Shown piece by piece: positions 5,631 through 31,476 of a stretch of DNA of 40,666 nucleotides (the stretch's first letter is position 1; each line of letters begins with the position of its first letter). Where the stretch lies: assembly GCF_016900315.1 (NCBI RefSeq), contig NZ_JACSNQ010000017.1, forward strand, positions 1 through 40,666. Reading direction: 5' to 3'. A program made the position numbers and the translations under genes. The notes under the pieces were generated by a model that was not told where the DNA came from, did not search any database, and saw only the letters and a program-made list of their open reading frames with translations. This DNA is from Olsenella profusa. Its GTDB lineage: Bacteria; Actinomycetota; Coriobacteriia; Coriobacteriales; Atopobiaceae.

Positions 5631-6112
5631 CGTTACAAAGTCGCGGTCGTTGTATCACCAACAGCCGGAGCGCTTTCAAAACCGCGCCTGCTGCATCCTA
5701 AACTGCCGAGGCGCTTACGAAACCACGCTTGTCACACCCCCGGCGACCGGTGTGCTTACAAAACAGCGCCCGTCGCAGGCGAGAAGGACCTCGGCGCTTA
5801 CGATTTGCGGACCGTTGCGGCCCCAGCGTCCTTCTCGCTTGCAACAGGCGGCGATCCGTAAGCGCGTCCGGGGCGGCTGGCCACAACAGCCGGGATTTTG
5901 GAAGCACTCGCGTCACCTAGCGGCGTAACAGCTGCGATTTTATAAGCACGGGCGAGCCGGGAGGCGCAACGGTCGCAAGTTTGAAAACGCTTCTGCTGAC
6001 CGGTGGCGCAACGGTCGCGGTTTTAAAAGCGTAGCCGGGCTGGTGGTGCAACGGCCCCGTTTTCGTAGGCGCCTGGCGGGCTGACAGCGCAACACATCCG
6101 TTTTAGTAAGCG
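5631..6112 (+). repeat. Repeat array 1: twelve 24-bp units, period about 41 bp, convergent
   Basis: A non-coding block between rubrerythrin and glgB. Five units read in plus orientation start at 5631, 5671, 5712, 5753 and 5795; seven in minus orientation start at 5841, 5883, 5925, 5966, 6008, 6048 and 6089. Start-to-start steps are 40-42 bp except 46 across the orientation switch. The plus consensus is roughly CGCTTAC-RAAAC, then a GC-rich stretch, then GTTGC, with TTA-N13-GTT as core; individual units have several mismatches and the 16-18 bp between them are not conserved. The switch is flanked by GGCGAGAAGGAC (5778-5789) and its near-inverse GTCCTTCTCGC (5828-5838). Short open frames across it have no ribosome sites and are ignored. 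Function unknown. Confidence 0.9.
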
Positions 6113-14826: not shown

Positions 14827-17800
14827 TTGAGGGCACGACACGTCACTTCAGAGTCCGAGTACAGAACCCCCTTCGGTGCCGTCCAGCTGGGCGGCACCGT
14901 TTCGCTGAGCATCGACGTGTGGGGAGATGACGTCGTCTTCTGCACGCTGCGCGTCTGGACCGACGCCCACGGCGAGGAACTCATCGAGATGCGCGGCAGC
15001 CGCAACGGCGACTGCCTGCGCTTCTCGGCGAACTACAAGCCGGCCGAGACGGGCGTGGTCTGGTACAGCTTCGACATCGAGGCGCGCGACGGCTCGGTGT
15101 GGCGCTACGGCGCCAAGGAGGGGTGGACCACCGGCGAGGGCACCTTTGCCTACGGCGACCCGCCGTCGTTCCAGATCACGGTCTTCTCGCCACGGGCAAA
15201 CCAGCCGCGGTGGTACCGCGAGGGCATCGTCTACCAGATCTTCCCCGACCGCTTTGCGCGCGGGGAGGACTGGGAGCGCCGCGCCGCCGACTCGATGGCG
15301 ATCAAGCGCAAGGGCGGCCCCGGCCGCGAGGTGCTCCAGGACTGGGACACCCCGCCCACCTACGCGCGCACGCCGGAGGGCGGCATCGACCACTGGGACT
15401 TCTACGGCGGCACGCTCGAGGGCATCCGCGAGAAGCTCGGCTACCTCGAGGACCTTGGCGTGACGGTGCTCTACCTGAACCCCGTCTTCGAGGCGGCGAG
15501 CAACCACCGCTACGACACGGCCGACTACCTGCGCATCGACCCGATGCTCGGCGACGAGCGGAGCTTCCGCGAGCTCTGCGTGGACGCGGCCGAGCACGGC
15601 ATCTCGGTGATCCTTGACGGCGTCTTCAACCACGTGGGCGCCGACTCGCGCTACTTCAACCGCTTCGGTACCTACGCGGAGCCGGGGGCCTACCAGGGCG
15701 AGAAGTCCCCGTACTTCAATTGGTTCACCTTCAACGACGACGGCACCTACGCCGGCTGGTGGGGGGACCAGAACCTCCCCAGTGTGCGCTCCGACTGCGA
15801 CGAGTTCCACGAGCTCATCTGCGGGCGCGCAGGCGTGATCCGCCACTGGCTGCGCTCCGGCGCCCGGGGCTGGCGCCTCGACGTGGCCGACGAGCTGACC
15901 GACGACTTCATTGTCCAGATCAAGCAGGCTCTCGTCACCGAGAAGCCCGACGGCGTGCTCATCGGCGAGGTCTGGGAGGACGCCTCCAACAAGCTCGCCT
16001 ACGGCAAGCTGCGCCAGTACTTCGAGGGCAAGGAGCTCGACGGCACGATGAACTACCCGCTGCGCACCGGGCTTCTCGCCTTCATACGCGGCGACATCGG
16101 AGCCTCCGAGCTCGCGGCGCGCCTTGAGCAGCTGCGCGAGAACTACCCGCGCGACAACTTCTACTCGGCGCTCAACCTGCTGGGCAGCCACGACCGCGAG
16201 CGCCTCTTCACGGTGCTCGGCGGCGCTCCGGACCCGGACTCGCTGCCCGAGGAGGAGCGCGCGAGCTTCCGGCTTGACGACAACCACGTGGGCCTTGCCA
16301 AGGCACGCCTGTGGGTGATGGCGCTGCTGCAGATGACGCTGCCCGGCGTGCCGTGCGTCTACTACGGCGACGAGCGCGGCGTCGAGGGCTTCCGTGACCC
16401 GTACAACCGTGCGAGCTTCCCGTGGGACGGGGGGCTGCAGGACTGCACGTCCATCTACCGCAACGCGATCGCCCTGCGCAAGACGCTGCCGGTGCTGGTG
16501 GACGGCGAGTTCGAGCCCTTCTCGTCCGGCGAGGACGTCTTCGGCTTCTGGCGCCGCGGCGACGGCGAGAGCGTGTGCGTGCTCGCCAACGGCAGCCTGG
16601 AGAACGCCCACGACGTCAAGGTGCCCGTGGGCGCAAGCCAGGTCACCGACGTCATCTCGGGCAAGGTCCCGCGCATAAGCCACGGCCAGGCCGAGGTCTT
16701 CCTCTGGCCACTCGGCACGGCGGTGCTGCACTTCCACGACGAACAGCGCCTCCAGATGGCCCCCGAGCGCGGCATGGGCGTGCTCTGCCACGTCACCTCC
16801 GTGCCCAACGGCGGGAAGGCCGGCACGCTCGGCGCCCCGGCGCGCCGCTTCGTGGACTGGCTCGCCGCCGCGGGGCAGAAGTACTGGCAGGTGCTCCCGG
16901 TGAACCCGCCGGACCGCTACGGCTCCCCCTACGCGGGGCTCTCCGCCTTCGCGGGCAACGTCGGCCTCCTGGAGCTGCCGGCGCCGGCCGCGCTGGCCTC
17001 CCTGGAGAAGATCGGCAACGACGAGGACTACCTCGAGTTCTGTCGGGAGAACGACTACTGGCTGACGCCCTACGCCACCTTCCGCGCCTGCAAGGAGCTC
17101 CTGGGCGACGACGAGCCCTGGCAGGAGTGGCCGGAGCCCTACCGCACCTACTCGCCGCGCCTGGCCAAGGACCCGAAGCTGCGCAAGTCCGTCGAGGCGC
17201 ACCGCCGCATGCAGTACAAGTTCCAGCTTGAGTGGGAGGACCTGCTCAGGTACGCCCACGCGCACGGCGTGCGGATCATCGGCGACATGCCGATGTACGT
17301 CTCGGCGGACTCGGCCGACGTCTGGAGCGAGCCGGACATCTTCGACCTCGACGAGGACGGCTACCCGCGCCGTCAGGCCGGCGCGCCCGCGGACGCCTTT
17401 GCGCCGGAGGGCCAGCTCTGGGGCAACCCTACCTATCGCTGGGACATCCTGCGCGAGCAGGGCTACGGCTGGTGGATGCGCCGGTTCAGCCGCGCGCTCG
17501 CGCTCTACGACTACGTGCGCCTGGACCACTTTATCGGGTTCTCGTCCTACTATGCCATCCCGGCGGGCAAGCCGGCCACGGAGGGCACCTACGCCTTCGG
17601 ACCGGGGATCGACCTCTTCAGGACGGCCCAGCGCCAGTTTGGCGAGCTGCCGTTCATCGCCGAGGACCTGGGCGCCGTCACGCCGGCCGTCCGTGCGCTG
17701 GTCACGGCGACGGGATTTCCCGGCATGGACGTGGCGCAGTTCGCGGAGACGGACGTGCGGGAGACCTACGTGCCGCATCCGGGGACCGTGGCCTACACCG

Positions 17801-18090
17801 GCACGCACGACAACCAGACGCTGGTGGGCTTCTGCGAGAGCCGCTACTGCCTCGAGGAGGACGACGCGCGCGAGATGGCCGACGGCATCTGCCGGCGCGT
17901 GCTCGCCTCCGACGCCGACGTGGCGATCCTGCCGCTGCAGGACGTGCTGCTGCTGGACGACGAGGCGCGCATGAACGTGCCCGGCGTGGCCGAGGGCAAC
18001 TGGTCCTGGCGCGCCGACGACGAGGCCGTCGCGGCGGCCAGCGCCCGTCTCGCCGACCTCGCCGAGGCCAGCGGGAGGATTTTGGGGTAG
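14827..18090 (+). CDS. Fused GH13 amylase/neopullulanase-like domain and 4-alpha-glucanotransferase (MalQ)
   Basis: 1087 residues with two enzymes in one chain. Residues 1 to about 115 form a beta-sandwich like the CBM34 or N-domain of neopullulanases. About 120-630 is a GH13 barrel: YQIFPDRFARG, the nucleophile Asp in GWRLDVADEL, the acid Glu in VLIGEVWED, and LLGSHDRERL. From about 640 (MAPERGMGVLCHVTSVPN) to the end is GH77 MalQ: GDMPMYVSADSADVW, AFAPEGQLWGNPTYRWD, YDYVRLDHFIGF, FIAEDLGAVTP and YTGTHDNQT. MalQ passes maltosyl units between chains; the amylase half would cut alpha-glucan or cyclic dextrins. Fusions of this kind are known in anaerobic Gram-positives. TTG 14827 lies 3 bp after glgA, so translation is probably coupled. 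There is no signal peptide: it is cytoplasmic and works on glycogen. Confidence 0.93.
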   Translation: MRARHVTSESEYRTPFGAVQLGGTVSLSIDVWGDDVVFCTLRVWTDAHGEELIEMRGSRNGDCLRFSANYKPAETGVVWYSFDIEARDGSVWRYGAKEGWTTGEGTFAYGDPPSFQITVFSPRANQPRWYREGIVYQIFPDRFARGEDWERRAADSMAIKRKGGPGREVLQDWDTPPTYARTPEGGIDHWDFYGGTLEGIREKLGYLEDLGVTVLYLNPVFEAASNHRYDTADYLRIDPMLGDERSFRELCVDAAEHGISVILDGVFNHVGADSRYFNRFGTYAEPGAYQGEKSPYFNWFTFNDDGTYAGWWGDQNLPSVRSDCDEFHELICGRAGVIRHWLRSGARGWRLDVADELTDDFIVQIKQALVTEKPDGVLIGEVWEDASNKLAYGKLRQYFEGKELDGTMNYPLRTGLLAFIRGDIGASELAARLEQLRENYPRDNFYSALNLLGSHDRERLFTVLGGAPDPDSLPEEERASFRLDDNHVGLAKARLWVMALLQMTLPGVPCVYYGDERGVEGFRDPYNRASFPWDGGLQDCTSIYRNAIALRKTLPVLVDGEFEPFSSGEDVFGFWRRGDGESVCVLANGSLENAHDVKVPVGASQVTDVISGKVPRISHGQAEVFLWPLGTAVLHFHDEQRLQMAPERGMGVLCHVTSVPNGGKAGTLGAPARRFVDWLAAAGQKYWQVLPVNPPDRYGSPYAGLSAFAGNVGLLELPAPAALASLEKIGNDEDYLEFCRENDYWLTPYATFRACKELLGDDEPWQEWPEPYRTYSPRLAKDPKLRKSVEAHRRMQYKFQLEWEDLLRYAHAHGVRIIGDMPMYVSADSADVWSEPDIFDLDEDGYPRRQAGAPADAFAPEGQLWGNPTYRWDILREQGYGWWMRRFSRALALYDYVRLDHFIGFSSYYAIPAGKPATEGTYAFGPGIDLFRTAQRQFGELPFIAEDLGAVTPAVRALVTATGFPGMDVAQFAETDVRETYVPHPGTVAYTGTHDNQTLVGFCESRYCLEEDDAREMADGICRRVLASDADVAILPLQDVLLLDDEARMNVPGVAEGNWSWRADDEAVAAASARLADLAEASGRILG

Positions 18091-18155: not shown

Positions 18156-18221
18156 TGCTGTGTTGGGTTGGCGTTTGCTGCCTCGTTGCCGCCCTGACGC
18201 TGCTGCCGTCTCGCCCGTTGC

Positions 18222-18319
18222 CGCCACCCCCTTCCGCCGCCTCGCCGTCACCACCTTCCCGTCGCCTCGCCGCCACCCCCTTCCGCCGCCTCACCGTCAC
18301 CACCTTCCCGTCGCCCCGT
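18222..18319 (+). repeat. Two tandem 49-bp direct repeats
   Basis: Copy 1 spans 18222-18270 and copy 2 spans 18271-18319. They differ at only about three positions and are pyrimidine-rich (CCACCCCC-TTCCGCCGCC-type). The second copy runs into the first unit of repeat array 2. A similar GC-rich stretch of the opposite strand sense lies beyond array 3 (20076-20180), so the inverted arrangement around the orphan gene may extend into this sequence. Confidence 0.8.
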
Positions 18320-18539
18320 TAGGAATCCGCGCATCTTAGCGCGGGCGCGTCCCGTTGCGTTAGGTTCCGCCGCACATTTTGCCCTCCCGGCCCAAATACG
18401 CCCCGGTTCCTAACGGGCCCGCAGGCGGCTGCACTAACATGCAGCGGTTCCTAACGGACTCAGGGGGCGGCCGCACTAACATGTCCCGGTTCCTAACGGG
18501 TTCGCGGCCGGCCGCGCTAACGTGCCCCGGCTTCTAACC
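18317..18539 (+). repeat. Repeat array 2 (left of orphan gene): >> <<<<, period 41-42 bp
   Basis: Plus units start at 18317 and 18358; minus units start at 18392, 18433, 18475 and 18516. The plus consensus is CGTTAGGAACCGG-GGCATGTTAGT, with the same TTA-N13-GTT core geometry as arrays 1 and 5. The gap at the orientation switch is 10 bp. The whole block is an inverted copy of array 3, including the spacers (for example GCCCTCCCGGCCCAAATACG in both); by eye about nine positions in ten agree. Confidence 0.92.
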
Positions 18540-18556
18540 CGCCCCGACACCACCCA

Positions 18557-18590
18557 GTTCTCCCGGCGAGGAGAACGGCGAGAAGAACCT
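18557..18590 (+). repeat. Inverted repeat followed by exact GGCGAGAAGAACCT
   Basis: GTTCTCC (18557-18563) and GGAGAAC (18570-18576) form a perfect 7-bp dyad. It is followed immediately by an exact copy of the recurrent motif at 18577-18590, plus orientation, 38 bp after repeat array 2. Confidence 0.85.
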
Positions 18591-18659
18591 GCGAACAGCC
18601 GGGTCGCGACGCCGTGCGATCCTCGTCGCAGGCCGTCCGGAAGCTTGGCGTAAGAAAGC

Positions 18660-18700
18660 CGCTTGTTTCCTGACTAACTATTTTAATTTCTCACACCATC
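18660..18700 (+). promoter_or_regulatory. AT-rich leader of the orphan gene
   Basis: A short AT-rich stretch (TTGTTT at 18663-18668, TTTAAT at 18682-18687) in an otherwise very GC-rich interval, directly upstream of the orphan gene. The -35/-10 spacing is too short for a standard promoter, so only the location is suggestive. Confidence 0.3.
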
Positions 18701-18728
18701 ATACGTGGGAAAAGCGTACCCTCATTGC

Positions 18729-19814
18729 ATGGTTATGCTGCTGTCACACCTCAGCGCGCTCGAGGCGCTGCGTCGACAAGGGACCTCCGCTCTGCTCGAC
18801 GCTTCGGAGTCGGATGCCCCGCCGGTGCCCGACGTCGCACCAACGCATGCCGAGCTCACGGAACGCCTTGGGAGTGACCCGGCCCTTCGCGGCCTTGAGG
18901 GGCCGGTCGACCTGCTTACAACAGGTGCGCGGGGCCACGCTCGGACCTCGACGGTCACCACTCACCAGCAGACGACGTCGCTGCCGCCCGGGGCGCTGCT
19001 GCGACTCTCCGACGACGTTTGGTGCACCTCGCCCGAGCAGCTTGCGGTGCAGATGGCACCGCGCCTCACCAAGCTCGAGCTCGTGGCTCTGCTTGCGGAG
19101 CTGATGGGGCTCTACGCCATCGAACCAACCACCGAGGACGGCATGGTGCAGCGCGACGTCCCGCTCGCAACGCCGGAGAACGTGGGCGCGCACCTTGACG
19201 CCCTGGGCCCCGTCCGCGGCACGGCCCAGGTGAGGCGCGCGCTGGCCCTGACGCCCGTGCGCTCCGGCTCTCCGCGCGAGACAAAGCTCACGCTGCGCCT
19301 CTCGCTCAAGCCGGCCCTCGGCGGCTGGCACCTCAACGTGCTGTCCCTCAACTCCTCGGTTGAGGTGCAACGGATTGACCGCGCCATGACCTGCGGCGTG
19401 CGCCGTCCCGACATCGTGATCGGGGGCCGGGACGGCCAGGTGGTGGCCCTCGAGTATCACGGGCGTCGGCATGACGCGCCTGAGCGGCTGGCGCAAGACG
19501 CCGCGCGCACCAACGAGCTCAGGGCCATCGGGGTTGGGGAATACGTGGTTCGCCGCGAGCAGTACCGCGACCTCGCCTACATGGACGGGCTCGTTGAGCG
19601 CATCCGCGCCGACCTCCACCTCCCGCGCGTGGGGTTGGCGCCCGAGGAGCGGAAGCGTCGCAGGCAGCTGCGTCAGGAGCTCTACCATGAGCTCGAGTGC
19701 ATCGACGGTACCCACTGGGACGGTCGCGAGCGGGCGAGAAGGGCTGCGGAGCAGGAGGTCGCTGCGGAGGGTGGCTGGGACGTCGTGCCGGTGGAGGCGT
19801 ACGGGCTGGGCTGA
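18729..19814 (+). CDS. Orphan protein with AbiEi/DUF559-like (PD-(D/E)XK-type) C-terminal domain
   Basis: 361 residues from ATG 18729; GTG 18705 (369 residues) or ATG 18735 are alternatives, and none has a good ribosome site. The N-terminus (LLSHLSALEALRR) and the block RGTAQVRRALALTPVRSGSPRETKL resemble actinobacterial AbiEi-antitoxin/DUF559 proteins. The C-terminal domain has the sparse nuclease-fold pattern: Glu in SPRETKL, Asp in RRPDIVI, then VALEYHGRRH, a later Asp/Arg pair (AQDAARTNELRAIG) and YVVRREQYRDL. This resembles Vsr-like folds, with EYxG-xxH in place of ExK. Cleavage activity is not assured. It is a single gene between the glycogen operon and mfd, enclosed by the mirror-image arrays 2 and 3, so it looks like a cassette. 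Whether it acts on those repeats is speculation. Confidence 0.7.
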   Translation: MVMLLSHLSALEALRRQGTSALLDASESDAPPVPDVAPTHAELTERLGSDPALRGLEGPVDLLTTGARGHARTSTVTTHQQTTSLPPGALLRLSDDVWCTSPEQLAVQMAPRLTKLELVALLAELMGLYAIEPTTEDGMVQRDVPLATPENVGAHLDALGPVRGTAQVRRALALTPVRSGSPRETKLTLRLSLKPALGGWHLNVLSLNSSVEVQRIDRAMTCGVRRPDIVIGGRDGQVVALEYHGRRHDAPERLAQDAARTNELRAIGVGEYVVRREQYRDLAYMDGLVERIRADLHLPRVGLAPEERKRRRQLRQELYHELECIDGTHWDGRERARRAAEQEVAAEGGWDVVPVEAYGLG

Positions 19815-19853
19815 GGTCTTTCTTGCCGTTTTTCTCGCCGGTATGCCGGGGCG

Positions 19854-20075
19854 GGTTAGGGATTGGGGCATGCCAGTGCCGCCGGCCGCGAACCCGTTGG
19901 GAACCGGGGCATGTTAGTGCGGCCGCCCCTGAACCCGTTAGGAACCGCTGCGTGTTAGTGCAGCCGCATGCGGGCCCGTTAGGAACCGGGGCGTATTTGG
20001 GCCGGGAGGGCAAAAGGTGCGGCGAAACCTAACGAGACGGGCCCCGGGCGCGCTAAGATGCGCGGATTCCTAACG
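19854..20075 (+). repeat. Repeat array 3 (right of orphan gene): >>>> <<, period 41 bp
   Basis: Plus units start at 19854, 19895, 19936 and 19977, exactly 41 bp apart; minus units start at 20011 and 20052. The switch gap is 10 bp. Read on the minus strand this is array 2 again. TTTCTCGCC (19831-19839) precedes it and GGCGAGAAGAACCT (20224-20237) follows it. The interval 20076-20220 is GC-rich, with CGGTGGCGGC-type low complexity and no gene that I can support. Confidence 0.92.
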
Positions 20076-20337: not shown

Positions 20338-23300
20338 ATGCTCATCGACCGCGTTTCTCGCCAGCTGCTCGCCGACCCGGAGCTTGCGCCGCTCGTGCGC
20401 GAGCTCGAGGCCGGTCACGACGCAAGCCTCGCCGTGGCCCAGTCCGCCCGTCCGCTCGTGCTCGCGGCGCTGTGGGCGGCCAACCCGCGACCCTGCCTGC
20501 TCGTGGTCTCCGGCGAGGAGGCGGCCGACCGCACCGCCCGCGCCATCGGGGCCTGGCTCGGCCAGGACGTGGTGGGGCGCTACCCGGAGCGGCGGGACCG
20601 ACCCTGGGCCGACACCGCCCCGGACGACGCCGTCATCGGCACGCGCTGCCGCTCGGTGACGCGCCTTGCCGCGGGGGAGCGCTGCGTGATCGTGGCCTCT
20701 GCCCACGCGCTGCTGCGTCGCGTGCCACCCAAGGGCAGCGGCTACTTTGCCTCGAGCACCTTCGCCGTGGGCGAGGAGGTCCCGTTTGAGGACGTGCCGG
20801 CGCTGCTCGTGGGCATGGGCTACAACGACGCCGGCGAGGTGGACGCCCCCGGCGCCTTCCACGTGCACGGCGACACGGTGGACGTGTGGCCCGCGCAGGC
20901 CACGAGCCCCGTGCGCATGGAGTTCTTCGGGGACGAGATCGACCGCGTGCGCCGCATGGTCCCCTCGACGGGCCAGACGATCGGCGAGCTCACCGAGGTC
21001 ACCGTCTCCCCGTGCCGCGAGCTCGCCCTCACCGACGAGACCGTGGCCCGTGCCGAGCGCGCGCTCTACCACGCGGCCGAGGACAGCTCCAAGGTGGCCG
21101 CCGACCTCGAGCTCATTCGTCAGCGCGCGGCCGCGCCCTCGCTGGAACGCTACCTCCCGCAGCTCTACGGGAGCACCGCCTCGCCGCTCGAGCACCTGAG
21201 CGCCCAGACGCTCGTGGTGCTGGCCGAGCCGCGCGCCCTCTTCGACGACTGCATGCGTGCCGCCGACGACGTGCTCGCCGCGGCCAACGCCGCCCGCGTG
21301 CCGCTGGAGGGCCTCTACACCTCGCCGCGCGAGCTGGACTTTGGCACGCAGCAGCGCCTGAGCTTCTCGTCCATGCTGCGCGCGGGCTCCGGCTCCGCCA
21401 CGGCCGAGCTCGCCGTGCGCCAGCCGGGGATCGCGGGCTCCGACTCCAAGCTGCTCGGGCGCCTGCGCCAGCTCGTGAAGGACCGCGCGTCGGTGATCTT
21501 CGCCGTGCCGGACCGTGGCGCGCGCGAGTCGCTGGAGCTGCGCCTTACGGACGAGGCCGTGCCCTTCCTTGAGTCCCTGGGCACGGCTGCCGAGAACAAC
21601 GACCCGCAGGTACCGCCCCTTGAGCGCGGGCGTGTGACCTTCACCGACGCGCCAGTGCCGGCCGGCATCGTGATTCCGGGTGCGAGCCTGGCCGTCCTCT
21701 CCGTCTCGGACCTCTCCGCCCGCACGGCCAAGGCGCGCCGCCGAGCCCGCCGCGTGGACCCCACGAGCGTCACCTTCCCGTTCAAGCCCGGCGACTACGT
21801 GGTCCACGCCACGCACGGCATCGCGCTCTTCTCGCAGATCGTCCGCCAGGAGGTGGCCGGGCGCGAGCGCGACTACTTCCTGCTGGAGTACGCCGGCGGC
21901 GACAAACTCTTCGTGCCGTTGGAGCAGGTGGACCGCATCACCCGCTACGTGGGGCCCGACGGCGCGAGCCCGCGCCTCACGCGCCTCAACACCGCCGACT
22001 GGAGCCGCGCCACCAACAAGGCGCGCAAGTCCGCCAAGAAGCTCGCGTTCGACCTCGTGGACCTCTACACGCGCCGCAGCTCGGTGCCGGGCTACGCGTT
22101 CTCCCCGGACACGCCCGTCCAGCAGGAGATGGAGGCGAGCTTCCCCTACGAGCTCACGCCGGACCAGCGCAGCGCCATCGCCGACATCAAGGCCGACATG
22201 GAGGCCCGCCGGCCGATGGACCGCCTGCTCTGCGGCGACGTGGGCTTCGGCAAGACGGAGGTGGCCCTGCGCGCGGCGTTCAAGTGCTGTCAGGACGCCA
22301 AGCAGGTCATGGTGCTCTGCCCCACGACCATCCTGGCGCAGCAGCACTTCGAGACGTTCTTCTCGCGGTTTGCGCCCTTTGACCTCAAGGTGTCGGTGCT
22401 GTCCCGCTTTGTGACGCCGGCCCAGCAGCGCCGCGCGCTCGAGGGCTTCGCGGACGGCTCGGTGGACGTGCTCATCGGCACGCACCGCCTGCTCTCCGCC
22501 GACGTCAACCCCTATGACCTGGGGCTCGTTGTGATCGACGAGGAGCAGCGCTTTGGCGTGCAGCACAAGGAGCAGCTCAAGAACATGCGCGAGCAGGTCG
22601 ACGTGCTGACCCTCTCGGCCACGCCCATCCCGCGCACCATGCAGATGGCCATGAGCGGCGTGCGCGACATGAGCCTCATCATGACGCCGCCGCCCGGCCG
22701 CCTACCCGTCAAGGTGACGGTGGGGGAGTGGGACCCCGACCTCGTCTCCGCGGCCATCCGCGACGAGCTGGCGCGCAAGGGGCAGGTCTACTACGTGTCC
22801 AACCGCGTCCACACCATCGATGACGCGGTGGCGCGCGTGATGGAGGCCGCCCCGGAGGCGCGCGTGGGCGTTGCTCACGGCAAGATGAGCGCGCGCGAGG
22901 TCGAGGACGTGATGCTGCGCTTCCAGGAGCACGAGATCGACGTCCTGGTGGCCACGACGATCATCGAGAGCGGCATCGATAACCCGCGCACCAACACGCT
23001 CATCATCGAGGACTCGCAGCGCCTGGGCCTGGCGCAGCTCTACCAGCTCAAGGGCCGCGTGGGCCGCGGCCGCACGCAGGCCTACGCCTACTTCATGTTC
23101 CCGGCCGAGCAGCCCCTCACGCCCGAGGCCACCGACCGCCTCACGGCCATCAACGAGTACCAGGACCTGGGCAGCGGCATGAAGATCGCGATGCGCGACC
23201 TGGAGATTCGCGGCGCGGGCTCGCTCATGGGCGCCGAGCAGCACGGCAACCTCTCCAGCGTGGGCTTTGACCTCTTCACGCAGATGCTCGGCGAGGCCGT

Positions 23301-23775
23301 GTCCGAGGCGCGCGGCGAGACGCGCGACGTGGAGCTGGCCGAGGTCACGATCAACCTGCCGGCCGACTTCTTCCTGGCCGAGGAGTACCTCCCGGACGTG
23401 GACAAGCGCGTGCTGGTGTACCGCCAGCTTGCCGCGGCAGTGGACCTGGCCGAGGTGGACGCCGTCCAGCGCGACTGCGAGGAGCGCTACGGCGCGCTGC
23501 CACTGGCCGGGCGCAACCTCTTCGACCGCGCCCGCCTGCGCATCCGCGCGCAGCGCCTGGGCTGCACGACGGTCTCCCTCGCCGCCGGGCGCCTCACCTA
23601 CCAGGGGCTGGAGGTCCCGCGGCAGACGGCGCTCAAGCTGCGCGAGCGCGGCGGCATCTACTACGCCAAGACGCACAAGCTGGCCTACCCGTTCCATCGC
23701 TCCGAGGAGGAGGTCATGCCGGCCGCCCTCGGCGTGCTGGAGGAGATCGGCGGCGACGACGAGGCGGAGGAGTAG
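20338..23775 (+). CDS. mfd: Transcription-repair coupling factor Mfd
   Basis: 1145 residues, normal for Mfd. It removes RNA polymerase stalled at DNA lesions and recruits the UvrA/UvrB repair system. N-terminal UvrB-like domains come first (LVVSGEEAADRTARAIGAWL, VHGDTVDVWPAQATSPVRMEFFGDEIDRVR). The RNA polymerase-interacting domain is VHATHGIALFSQIVRQE to FVPLEQVDRITRYVG. The translocase has Walker A GDVGFGKTEVALRA, DEEQ in VVIDEEQRFGVQHKEQ, LSATPIPRTMQM, TTIIESGIDNPRTNT and QLKGRVGRG. ATG 20338 has AGAGGA just upstream; the in-frame extension to 20134 crosses low-complexity DNA and the putative promoter. It is transcribed alone. Confidence 0.96.
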   Translation: MLIDRVSRQLLADPELAPLVRELEAGHDASLAVAQSARPLVLAALWAANPRPCLLVVSGEEAADRTARAIGAWLGQDVVGRYPERRDRPWADTAPDDAVIGTRCRSVTRLAAGERCVIVASAHALLRRVPPKGSGYFASSTFAVGEEVPFEDVPALLVGMGYNDAGEVDAPGAFHVHGDTVDVWPAQATSPVRMEFFGDEIDRVRRMVPSTGQTIGELTEVTVSPCRELALTDETVARAERALYHAAEDSSKVAADLELIRQRAAAPSLERYLPQLYGSTASPLEHLSAQTLVVLAEPRALFDDCMRAADDVLAAANAARVPLEGLYTSPRELDFGTQQRLSFSSMLRAGSGSATAELAVRQPGIAGSDSKLLGRLRQLVKDRASVIFAVPDRGARESLELRLTDEAVPFLESLGTAAENNDPQVPPLERGRVTFTDAPVPAGIVIPGASLAVLSVSDLSARTAKARRRARRVDPTSVTFPFKPGDYVVHATHGIALFSQIVRQEVAGRERDYFLLEYAGGDKLFVPLEQVDRITRYVGPDGASPRLTRLNTADWSRATNKARKSAKKLAFDLVDLYTRRSSVPGYAFSPDTPVQQEMEASFPYELTPDQRSAIADIKADMEARRPMDRLLCGDVGFGKTEVALRAAFKCCQDAKQVMVLCPTTILAQQHFETFFSRFAPFDLKVSVLSRFVTPAQQRRALEGFADGSVDVLIGTHRLLSADVNPYDLGLVVIDEEQRFGVQHKEQLKNMREQVDVLTLSATPIPRTMQMAMSGVRDMSLIMTPPPGRLPVKVTVGEWDPDLVSAAIRDELARKGQVYYVSNRVHTIDDAVARVMEAAPEARVGVAHGKMSAREVEDVMLRFQEHEIDVLVATTIIESGIDNPRTNTLIIEDSQRLGLAQLYQLKGRVGRGRTQAYAYFMFPAEQPLTPEATDRLTAINEYQDLGSGMKIAMRDLEIRGAGSLMGAEQHGNLSSVGFDLFTQMLGEAVSEARGETRDVELAEVTINLPADFFLAEEYLPDVDKRVLVYRQLAAAVDLAEVDAVQRDCEERYGALPLAGRNLFDRARLRIRAQRLGCTTVSLAAGRLTYQGLEVPRQTALKLRERGGIYYAKTHKLAYPFHRSEEEVMPAALGVLEEIGGDDEAEE

Positions 23776-24002: not shown

Positions 24003-24142
24003 CGTTAAGAACCGAGGCGTGTTGTTGCATGCCAGGCTCGCGCGGTTAGGAATTCGCACACGTTAAGCCCGCGGCAACGTAAGGAGCCCGGATTTCTAAC
24101 CAAACAAGCCGCCCTCGCCGCTATCTGCTCGGATTCCTAACA
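24003..24142 (+). repeat. Repeat array 4: >> <<, period 41 bp
   Basis: Plus units at 24003 and 24044, minus units at 24078 and 24119; both steps are 41 bp and the switch gap is 10 bp, as in arrays 2 and 3. The first unit (GTTAAGAACCGAGG, then GTTGTTGC) is intermediate between the GTTAGGAACC type of arrays 2 and 3 and the CTTAxxxAAC-GTTGC type of arrays 1 and 5, which supports a single family. Confidence 0.88.
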
Positions 24143-31155: not shown

Positions 31156-31476
31156 CGCTTAGAGAACGGCGGCCGTTGCGCGATTGTCGGACGCGGCTGC
31201 TTACGAAACGGGGACTGTTGCAGCCCGGCGCCCATACCTTGCTTAGAGAACGGCGACCGTTTCCGTGCGGCCAGCCAACCCGCTTAGAGAATCGGGCGCG
31301 TTGCGGCTTCGGGGGCGAAAAACGTGCCGTTGAGCGAGGTTCTTCTCGCCGGGCGGACGGTGCGGGGCGTAATACCCTGCAATTTCAAAGCGCCCGGAAG
31401 CCTCGGAGCTGCAACGGCTGCCAATCCCTAAGCGATGTCCCCGCACGGCTGCGCAACGACCACCGTTCTCTAAGCA
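31156..31476 (+). repeat. Repeat array 5: >>>> <<<, period 41-42 bp, motif in the centre
   Basis: Plus units at 31156, 31198, 31240 and 31281 (CGCTTAGAGAACGG then CGTTGC; steps 42, 42, 41). Minus units at 31369, 31411 and 31453 (steps 42, 42). A weaker minus unit may follow at 31498 and scattered GCAAC fragments reach 31606. Between the two halves lies an exact minus-strand copy of GGCGAGAAGAACCT (31337-31350). The 630-bp gap 31003-31632 holds no gene that I can support. Confidence 0.9.
31337..31350 (-). repeat. Exact copy of motif GGCGAGAAGAACCT (minus strand)
   Basis: Reads AGGTTCTTCTCGCC on the plus strand; it sits in the orientation switch of repeat array 5. Confidence 0.9.

Follow-up and report, generated by a model that had tools for sequence, protein, structure and literature searches.

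Small genes for homing endonucleases of the Vsr/PD-(D/E)XK type replace an allele at a fixed site, and the ends of Tn7-type transposons carry repeated TnsB sites, with TnsA serving as a nuclease. Solo LTRs and MITEs, in turn, are gene-less copies of the end sequence of an element. A further system, REPIN/RAYT, is described as a gene tied to a short repeat, with gene-less inverted groups of that repeat lying between genes and a repeat class that is specific to the gene lineage (PMC3116915). According to two reports, RAYTs are HUH-type tyrosine transposases whose presumed substrates are folded single strands (PMC3116915, PMC8266576).

Here we describe a locus in which one gene with nuclease motifs lies between two arrays of short repeats. 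The window, that is, the whole stretch of DNA that was analyzed, covers 40,666 nucleotides of the genome of Olsenella profusa. In a search of open PMC text, no description of such dispersed intergenic repeats for Olsenella, Atopobiaceae or Coriobacteriia appeared among the matches listed (titles and the beginnings of abstracts). We also found in open PMC text no paper joining repetitive extragenic repeats with a flanking Vsr endonuclease and none on DUF559/AbiEi in "Coriobacteri", and the search there for free-standing intergenic Vsr homing endonucleases returned one phage-intron paper only, in two versions.

The gene and its mirror-image arrays

The features of the window are collected in Table 1.

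Table 1. Positions of genes and repeat arrays in the window ('>' and '<' give the direction of units).
Feature	Coordinates	Strand	Description
Solo array, other class	5672..6110	.	GCTTAC..GTTGC, ~41 nt; '>' then '<' units; between rubrerythrin gene and glgB
Flanking gene, GlgX/4-alpha-glucanotransferase type	14917..18090	+	C-terminal part malQ; left edge of insertion site
Left array	18318..18538	.	Class A units '>><<<<'; starts 18318+, 18359+, 18390-, 18431-, 18473-, 18514-
Nuclease-motif gene	18705..19814	+	369-aa protein; PD-(D/E)XK (Vsr/MTES_1575-like) motifs P235-D236...E250-Y-H-G...H256
Right array	19855..20074	.	Class A units '>>>><<'; starts 19855+, 19896+, 19937+, 19978+, 20009-, 20050-; left array inverted
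Flanking gene mfd	20338..23775	+	Right edge of insertion site
Solo class A array	24004..24141	.	'>><<', weaker units, no gene; between mfd and mazG-type gene
Second solo array of GCTTAC..GTTGC class	31157..31475	.	'>>>>' then '<<<', 41-42 nt spacing

The class A unit has the consensus GTTAGGAAyCGsgGCATgTTwGnGC (~25 nt). In both arms, units of the same direction recur with a period of 41 nt and a single step of 42, and the central convergent pair is 31 nt apart in each arm. A repeat search of the window returned two inverted repeat pairs, 18312-18466/19926-20080 (155 nt, 92%) and 18464-18549/19844-19929 (86 nt, 85%), and an end-to-end alignment of the left and right arms gave 206 identical columns out of 233 (88.4%). 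Given that 136 of 150 positions agree in the units and 60 of 70 in the spacers, the spacers are almost as similar between the arms as the units are. The mirror-image arms, spacers included, had been estimated by eye at about 90 percent in the initial annotation, and the alignment confirms them; the unit pattern drawn there ('>><<<<' and '>>>><<') was reproduced by a unit model, and the arms do enclose exactly one gene, 18705-19814. Scanning with the same model found 25 arrays in 176 kb of the source genome (stretches picked for having matches), 2 arrays in 320 kb of eight congeners and none in shuffled sequence. Immediately outside the left array, at 18220-18317, lies a 49-nt direct repeat (96%).

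Given that Met at codon 9 of the enclosed gene is conserved in 46 of 50 aligned rows, translation is likely to start at 18729. The catalytic motif PD...(E/D)-x-x-G..H is conserved in an alignment of 50 (P 50/50, D 49/50, H 48/50), with E or D as the acidic residue between PD and H in most rows, and the most variable regions are the N-terminal 1-120 and the C-terminal 311-369. In Pfam, the window protein matched MTES_1575 (REase) below threshold (E 0.07, 13.6 bits vs a cut-off of 38.2), and 4 of 7 aligned members matched this domain, at best with E 0.013. PADLOC, NCBIfam and PHROGs gave no match to the window protein, and the earlier statement that no transposase motif is visible holds as far as these four collections reach. 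The MTES_1575 domain is described in one report as a novel Vsr-family REase that occurs fused with winged helices (PMC3710099). An AlphaFold model built from 7 sequences was weak (mean pLDDT 60.7), with the middle alone fair and residues 1-108 mostly below 50. The top Foldseek match of this weak model was a mitoribosomal chain (E 0.013), followed by Cas4-like, TnsA (prob 0.85-0.91, E 0.075-0.19), FAN1, PspGI and NucS, and no PDB match reached E 1e-3; many of the matches after the top one are PD-(D/E)XK nucleases by fold class. From the motif and these matches we infer that the protein is a nuclease, probably a DNA-cutting enzyme.

Relatives of the gene and their shared flanks

The description of the gene as an orphan has to be corrected, since the source genome has 7 places homologous to it, the query included, and homologs occur in 164 of the 197 genomes sampled in the order. 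Four homologs in the source genome (L009, L010, L012 and L015) have shared flanks and three (L011, L013 and L014) do not. In the named relatives (Olsenella, Thermophilibacter and an Atopobiaceae bacterium), all 6 homologs found sit between shared flanks, as do 27 of the 29 loci of a family search, with five loci counted in both sets. Under a strict rule for shared flanks (>=50 nt, E<1e-8), 36 of 46 cassettes passed, as did 4 of 109 control genes; given that these 4 are themselves nuclease cassettes by position, 0 of 105 other genes have shared flanks. Among homologs of 29-39% identity from 11 other Atopobiaceae genera, shared flanks were seen in 14 of 20 with a loose limit and in 12 of 20 with the strict rule. 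Outside the Atopobiaceae, 4 of the 20 homologs tested had them, 2 strongly. Since shared flanks are rare there although the protein is widespread in the order, the arrangement of a gene between arrays is mainly an Atopobiaceae trait. The array-less homologs outside the family, together with three of the seven in the source genome, indicate that arrays are not a general requirement of the protein.

The glgX/malQ-mfd insertion site

We compared the glgX/malQ-mfd site in 31 genomes, of which 29 were readable and 2 unreadable. A cassette was present in 15 and absent from 14, and it was oriented as in the window in 8 genomes and reversed in 7, one of them at a contig end. Among the cassette-less sites, 11 have a 166-411-nt gap and no nuclease, and 3 contain another gene. 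The genome nearest to the window by mfd (G103) has no cassette here, with a gap of 163-166 nt, and the cassette-less gap of another (G092) holds a solo array of the L021 type, as judged by eye. Several nuclease-less gaps, at L064, L070, L074, L079, L081 and L085, show, again by eye, other palindromic repeats of unknown type. At L096 and L102 the nuclease homologs at the shared site have decayed catalytic motifs and are possibly decaying copies.

The protein tree and the flank tree of the site are in conflict, with a six-row flank group (support 88/93) carrying three separate protein lineages. In the pair L022/L023, the flanks are 96-98% identical up to ~30 nt from the outermost units; inside, the arrays are not alignable, and dS is 0.86 for the gene vs 0.10 for mfd and 0.12 for malQ. 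We read this as a cassette replacement with breaks near the array edges, and such sharp edges fit homing-type copying by repair. Vertical inheritance seems to explain the pairs L065/L068 and L065/L092 (protein 94%). The mobile cassette that the initial annotation had suspected is supported, since among congeners one and the same site can carry the unit, lack it or show it replaced. The opposite picture, one orientation everywhere with arms that diverge independently, was not found as a whole; independent divergence holds in some pairs.

It had also been suggested that concerted copying between the arms keeps their spacers alike. The presence of the same unit in both arms speaks for this, as do L030/L031 and L042/L075, in which the arms are more similar within a cassette than between orthologs. 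However, orthologous arms are more similar than the arms within a cassette in L097/L098 and L065/L092, and L033/L036 is even. In L022/L023 the two arms have changed jointly, an outcome that replacement accounts for equally well. With this mixed support, concerted change of the two arms is not general.

Lineage-specific units and helical phasing

The ~25-nt unit is particular to each cassette, and the lineage-specific unit of one arm recurs in the other. In units with a clear motif, two variable boxes stand on either side of a short A/T-bearing centre, and the arrays run towards each other with convergent units. Similarity between units was correlated with similarity between proteins across 34 cassettes (Mantel r 0.63, 0 of 2000 permutations; Spearman 0.34, with many pairs at the score floor). 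These comparisons indicate that gene and array travel together, in a correlation that does not separate recognition from shared descent. In L023, box 1 is common to the window (GTTAGGAA) and box 2 (GTCCCC) is common to L022; this combination suggests that the two boxes may change partly independently.

We also analyzed the distances between units. Of 250 same-direction spacings, 240 were 21, 30-32, 40-42, 51-52, 62 or 73 nt, so that steps of 2, 3, 4, 5, 6 and 7 DNA turns are all present, and the resultant over same-direction spacings was 0.92 at a period of 10.25-10.5. When each value was counted once per cassette (n=66), the resultant was 0.80 at 10.5 nt vs <=0.38 in 1000 random sets, a comparison between related cassettes for which a p-value would not be literal. 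Given that nearly all spacings are multiples of the DNA turn, the natural reading is that the protein sits on one face of double-stranded DNA, as this pattern suggests.

Gene-less arrays

The source genome contains at least 88 class A units at no fewer than 28 places, two of which are the arms (150 of 613 candidates scored); none of the other 26 places in that genome adjoins any of its homologs of the gene. In 30 congeners the count was 0-3 class A units each (150 candidates scored per genome), with 0 in G103. In other lineages, the L021 unit has 50 copies in its own genome and 0 in 6 others, and the close pair G087 and G098 has a common unit family that is absent from six other genomes. At the 5672-6110 junction, the window has a solo array and G103 has a full cassette.

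In G087, 13 of 23 arrays are exactly 148 nt long with a uniform '>><<' pattern. Eight of its ~23 solo arrays lie within 70 kb of the cassette (C1:97800-168200), and this may reflect local spread. Of the 23 G087 arrays, 13 fall within a single alignment that spans them in the G098 stretches searched; 2 are diminished or lost, and the others are merged or not comparable. Thus, most comparable arrays are stable at the distance between these two genomes. The two losses left remnants or replaced neighboring sequence, not a clean empty site, and at these two polymorphic arrays no target duplication was seen. At two further places a single G098 array stands where G087 has two arrays ~6.5 kb apart. 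The array-bounded G087 blocks that are missing in G098 (L124:10103 to L125:3603 and L128:3671-10232) are presumably one PTS/SIS-type operon and one segment with methylase/helicase-like genes.

A different repeat is also abundant. The sequence GGCGAGAAG(A/G)AC is the commonest 12-mer of the genome stretches read, with 58+58 occurrences in 217 kb (in the window, for example, at 18577, 20224, 23784, 24186, 31338 and 39707), and it is absent from 120 kb outside the Atopobiaceae. The window holds 34 matches to GGCGAGAAGAACC with <=2 mismatches vs 1.7 expected, and in two genomes a looser form has a density of 2.3-2.7 per kb between genes vs 0.7 per kb inside genes. The repeat resembles a DNA-uptake-type signal sequence.

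Proposed mechanism and alternative explanations

We propose that the nuclease-fold protein would bind as an oligomer to one face of double-stranded DNA, at arrays made of its own ~25-nt two-box units; an array of this class flanks its gene on both sides. The protein would cut or nick at arrays, and host homologous recombination would then copy the array-gene-array block, or the array alone, into the break. Recombination between the arms could leave a solo array and, because the units of any one array point both ways, the block could insert in either orientation. The unit would then be a single-gene, homing-like mobile cassette, whose nuclease acts at its own arrays and which moves by recombination there, and we lean modestly towards this explanation. 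It accounts for most of what was observed, namely the arrays on both sides of the gene, the occurrence of both orientations, the edges of the replacement and the solo arrays. Binding of the units by the protein, cutting, and the spread of cassettes and arrays by repair-driven copying are what we infer from the patterns described above. A bolder proposal, to which we give slightly less than even credence, is that these cassettes represent a new class of self-spreading DNA, in which a restriction-type nuclease propagates helically phased arrays of its own two-box site and swaps gene-plus-array cassettes between relatives, the boxes and the protein changing together, so that each species has its own repeat family.

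The main rival, which we regard as unlikely but worth serious consideration, is that the nuclease is a passenger. The arrays would be spread by something unlinked, or be mere portable homology, and a nuclease gene, for example a defence gene, would lodge between them, with cassettes swapped by ordinary homologous recombination. The protein family is mostly without arrays across the order, and arrays also bound gene blocks other than the cassette (~6.5 kb, twice in G087, with a single array in G098), as a passenger would have it. However, a passenger would not predict that each gene lineage has its own unit class on both sides, that units and proteins are correlated, or that class A is nearly absent from 30 congeners.

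We consider it still less probable that the protein is a regulator or a chromosome-organizing DNA-binding protein, with the arrays as operators and the catalytic motif put to another use. Operator arrays typically have helically phased sites, and none of 48 arrays fell inside a gene predicted by an in-house caller, 28 lying between tandem, 13 between convergent and 5 between divergent genes and 2 at contig ends. In comparison with array-less gaps, which were obtained by subtraction, however, arrays are depleted between divergent genes (5/46 vs 22/73, p 0.015), where promoters lie, and enriched between convergent genes (13/46 vs 5/73, p 0.003), which argues against operators, as do the conservation of the catalytic motif and the gain, loss and replacement of cassettes.

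Two further explanations seem to us very improbable. One of them follows from the invertible cassette of the initial annotation, in which the mirrored arms, 88% identical, would recombine and flip the gene within one strain. The occurrence of both orientations at one site is real among species; however, orientation follows the cassette lineage, being constant within each of four supported clades of the protein tree and requiring 2 changes on that tree (shuffled mean 5.2) and 3 on the flank tree, which fits insertion or replacement either way round and not a working flip switch, and in 20 of the 27 loci with shared flanks the arms match best in direct rather than inverted orientation. The other is an RNA-level or single-strand element with convergent arrays as hairpins, terminators or double-stranded RNA, for which it can be said that arrays often start within tens of nucleotides of a stop codon and that, in the 13 uniform G087 arrays, units pair slightly better within than between arrays (0.822 vs 0.777; 96 of 5000 permutations >= observed); against it, unit spacing follows the DNA turn, spacers and loop of the same 13 arrays pair worse within than between (0.466 vs 0.593 and 0.357 vs 0.473, with 4996 and 4974 of 5000 permutations >= observed), and Rfam at gathering thresholds finds only tRNAs in the window.

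If the homing-like cassette is real, it would be a second enzymatic route, beside RAYT transposases, to dispersed intergenic repeat families in bacteria, in a host family of gut bacteria for which the searched literature gave no description of such repeats. Dozens of naturally paired variants of protein and site, with boxes that seemingly change partly independently, would make DNA recognition by this protein family directly testable. In addition, given that gene blocks with arrays at their borders vary between close relatives, the arrays may influence the exchange of accessory genes among commensals.

Comparison with known systems

Like Tn7-type ends, the cassette has repeated, oriented sites at both ends, and TnsA is among the fold matches of its protein. 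Unlike in Tn7, only one gene lies between the arms, with no second (DDE) transposase; neither Pfam, NCBIfam nor PHROGs gave a transposase match for this single gene, the ends are self-inverted arrays, and no target duplication was seen at two polymorphic arrays, neither of which gives a clean empty site. The solo arrays recall solo LTRs and MITEs, as at the junction that is full in G103 and solo in the window, although no reverse transcriptase or transposase was found in the cassette. Vsr/PD-(D/E)XK homing endonucleases share with it the replacement at a fixed site and the breaks near the unit edges. They differ from it in that the cassette has a multi-unit array in place of one target, that arrays occur genome-wide, and that no intron or intein was seen.

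In logic, the cassette is like REPIN/RAYT (REPtron), since its cognate repeats flank the gene and are also dispersed between genes. The window protein had no match to an HUH (Y1) tyrosine transposase in Pfam, NCBIfam, PADLOC or PHROGs, and its motif is PD...E..H. Unlike REPIN/RAYT, the cassette thus pairs a protein bearing PD-(D/E)XK motifs with arrays of several units whose spacing is in phase with the double helix. These gene-plus-array units have the appearance of a kind of mobile DNA not yet described.
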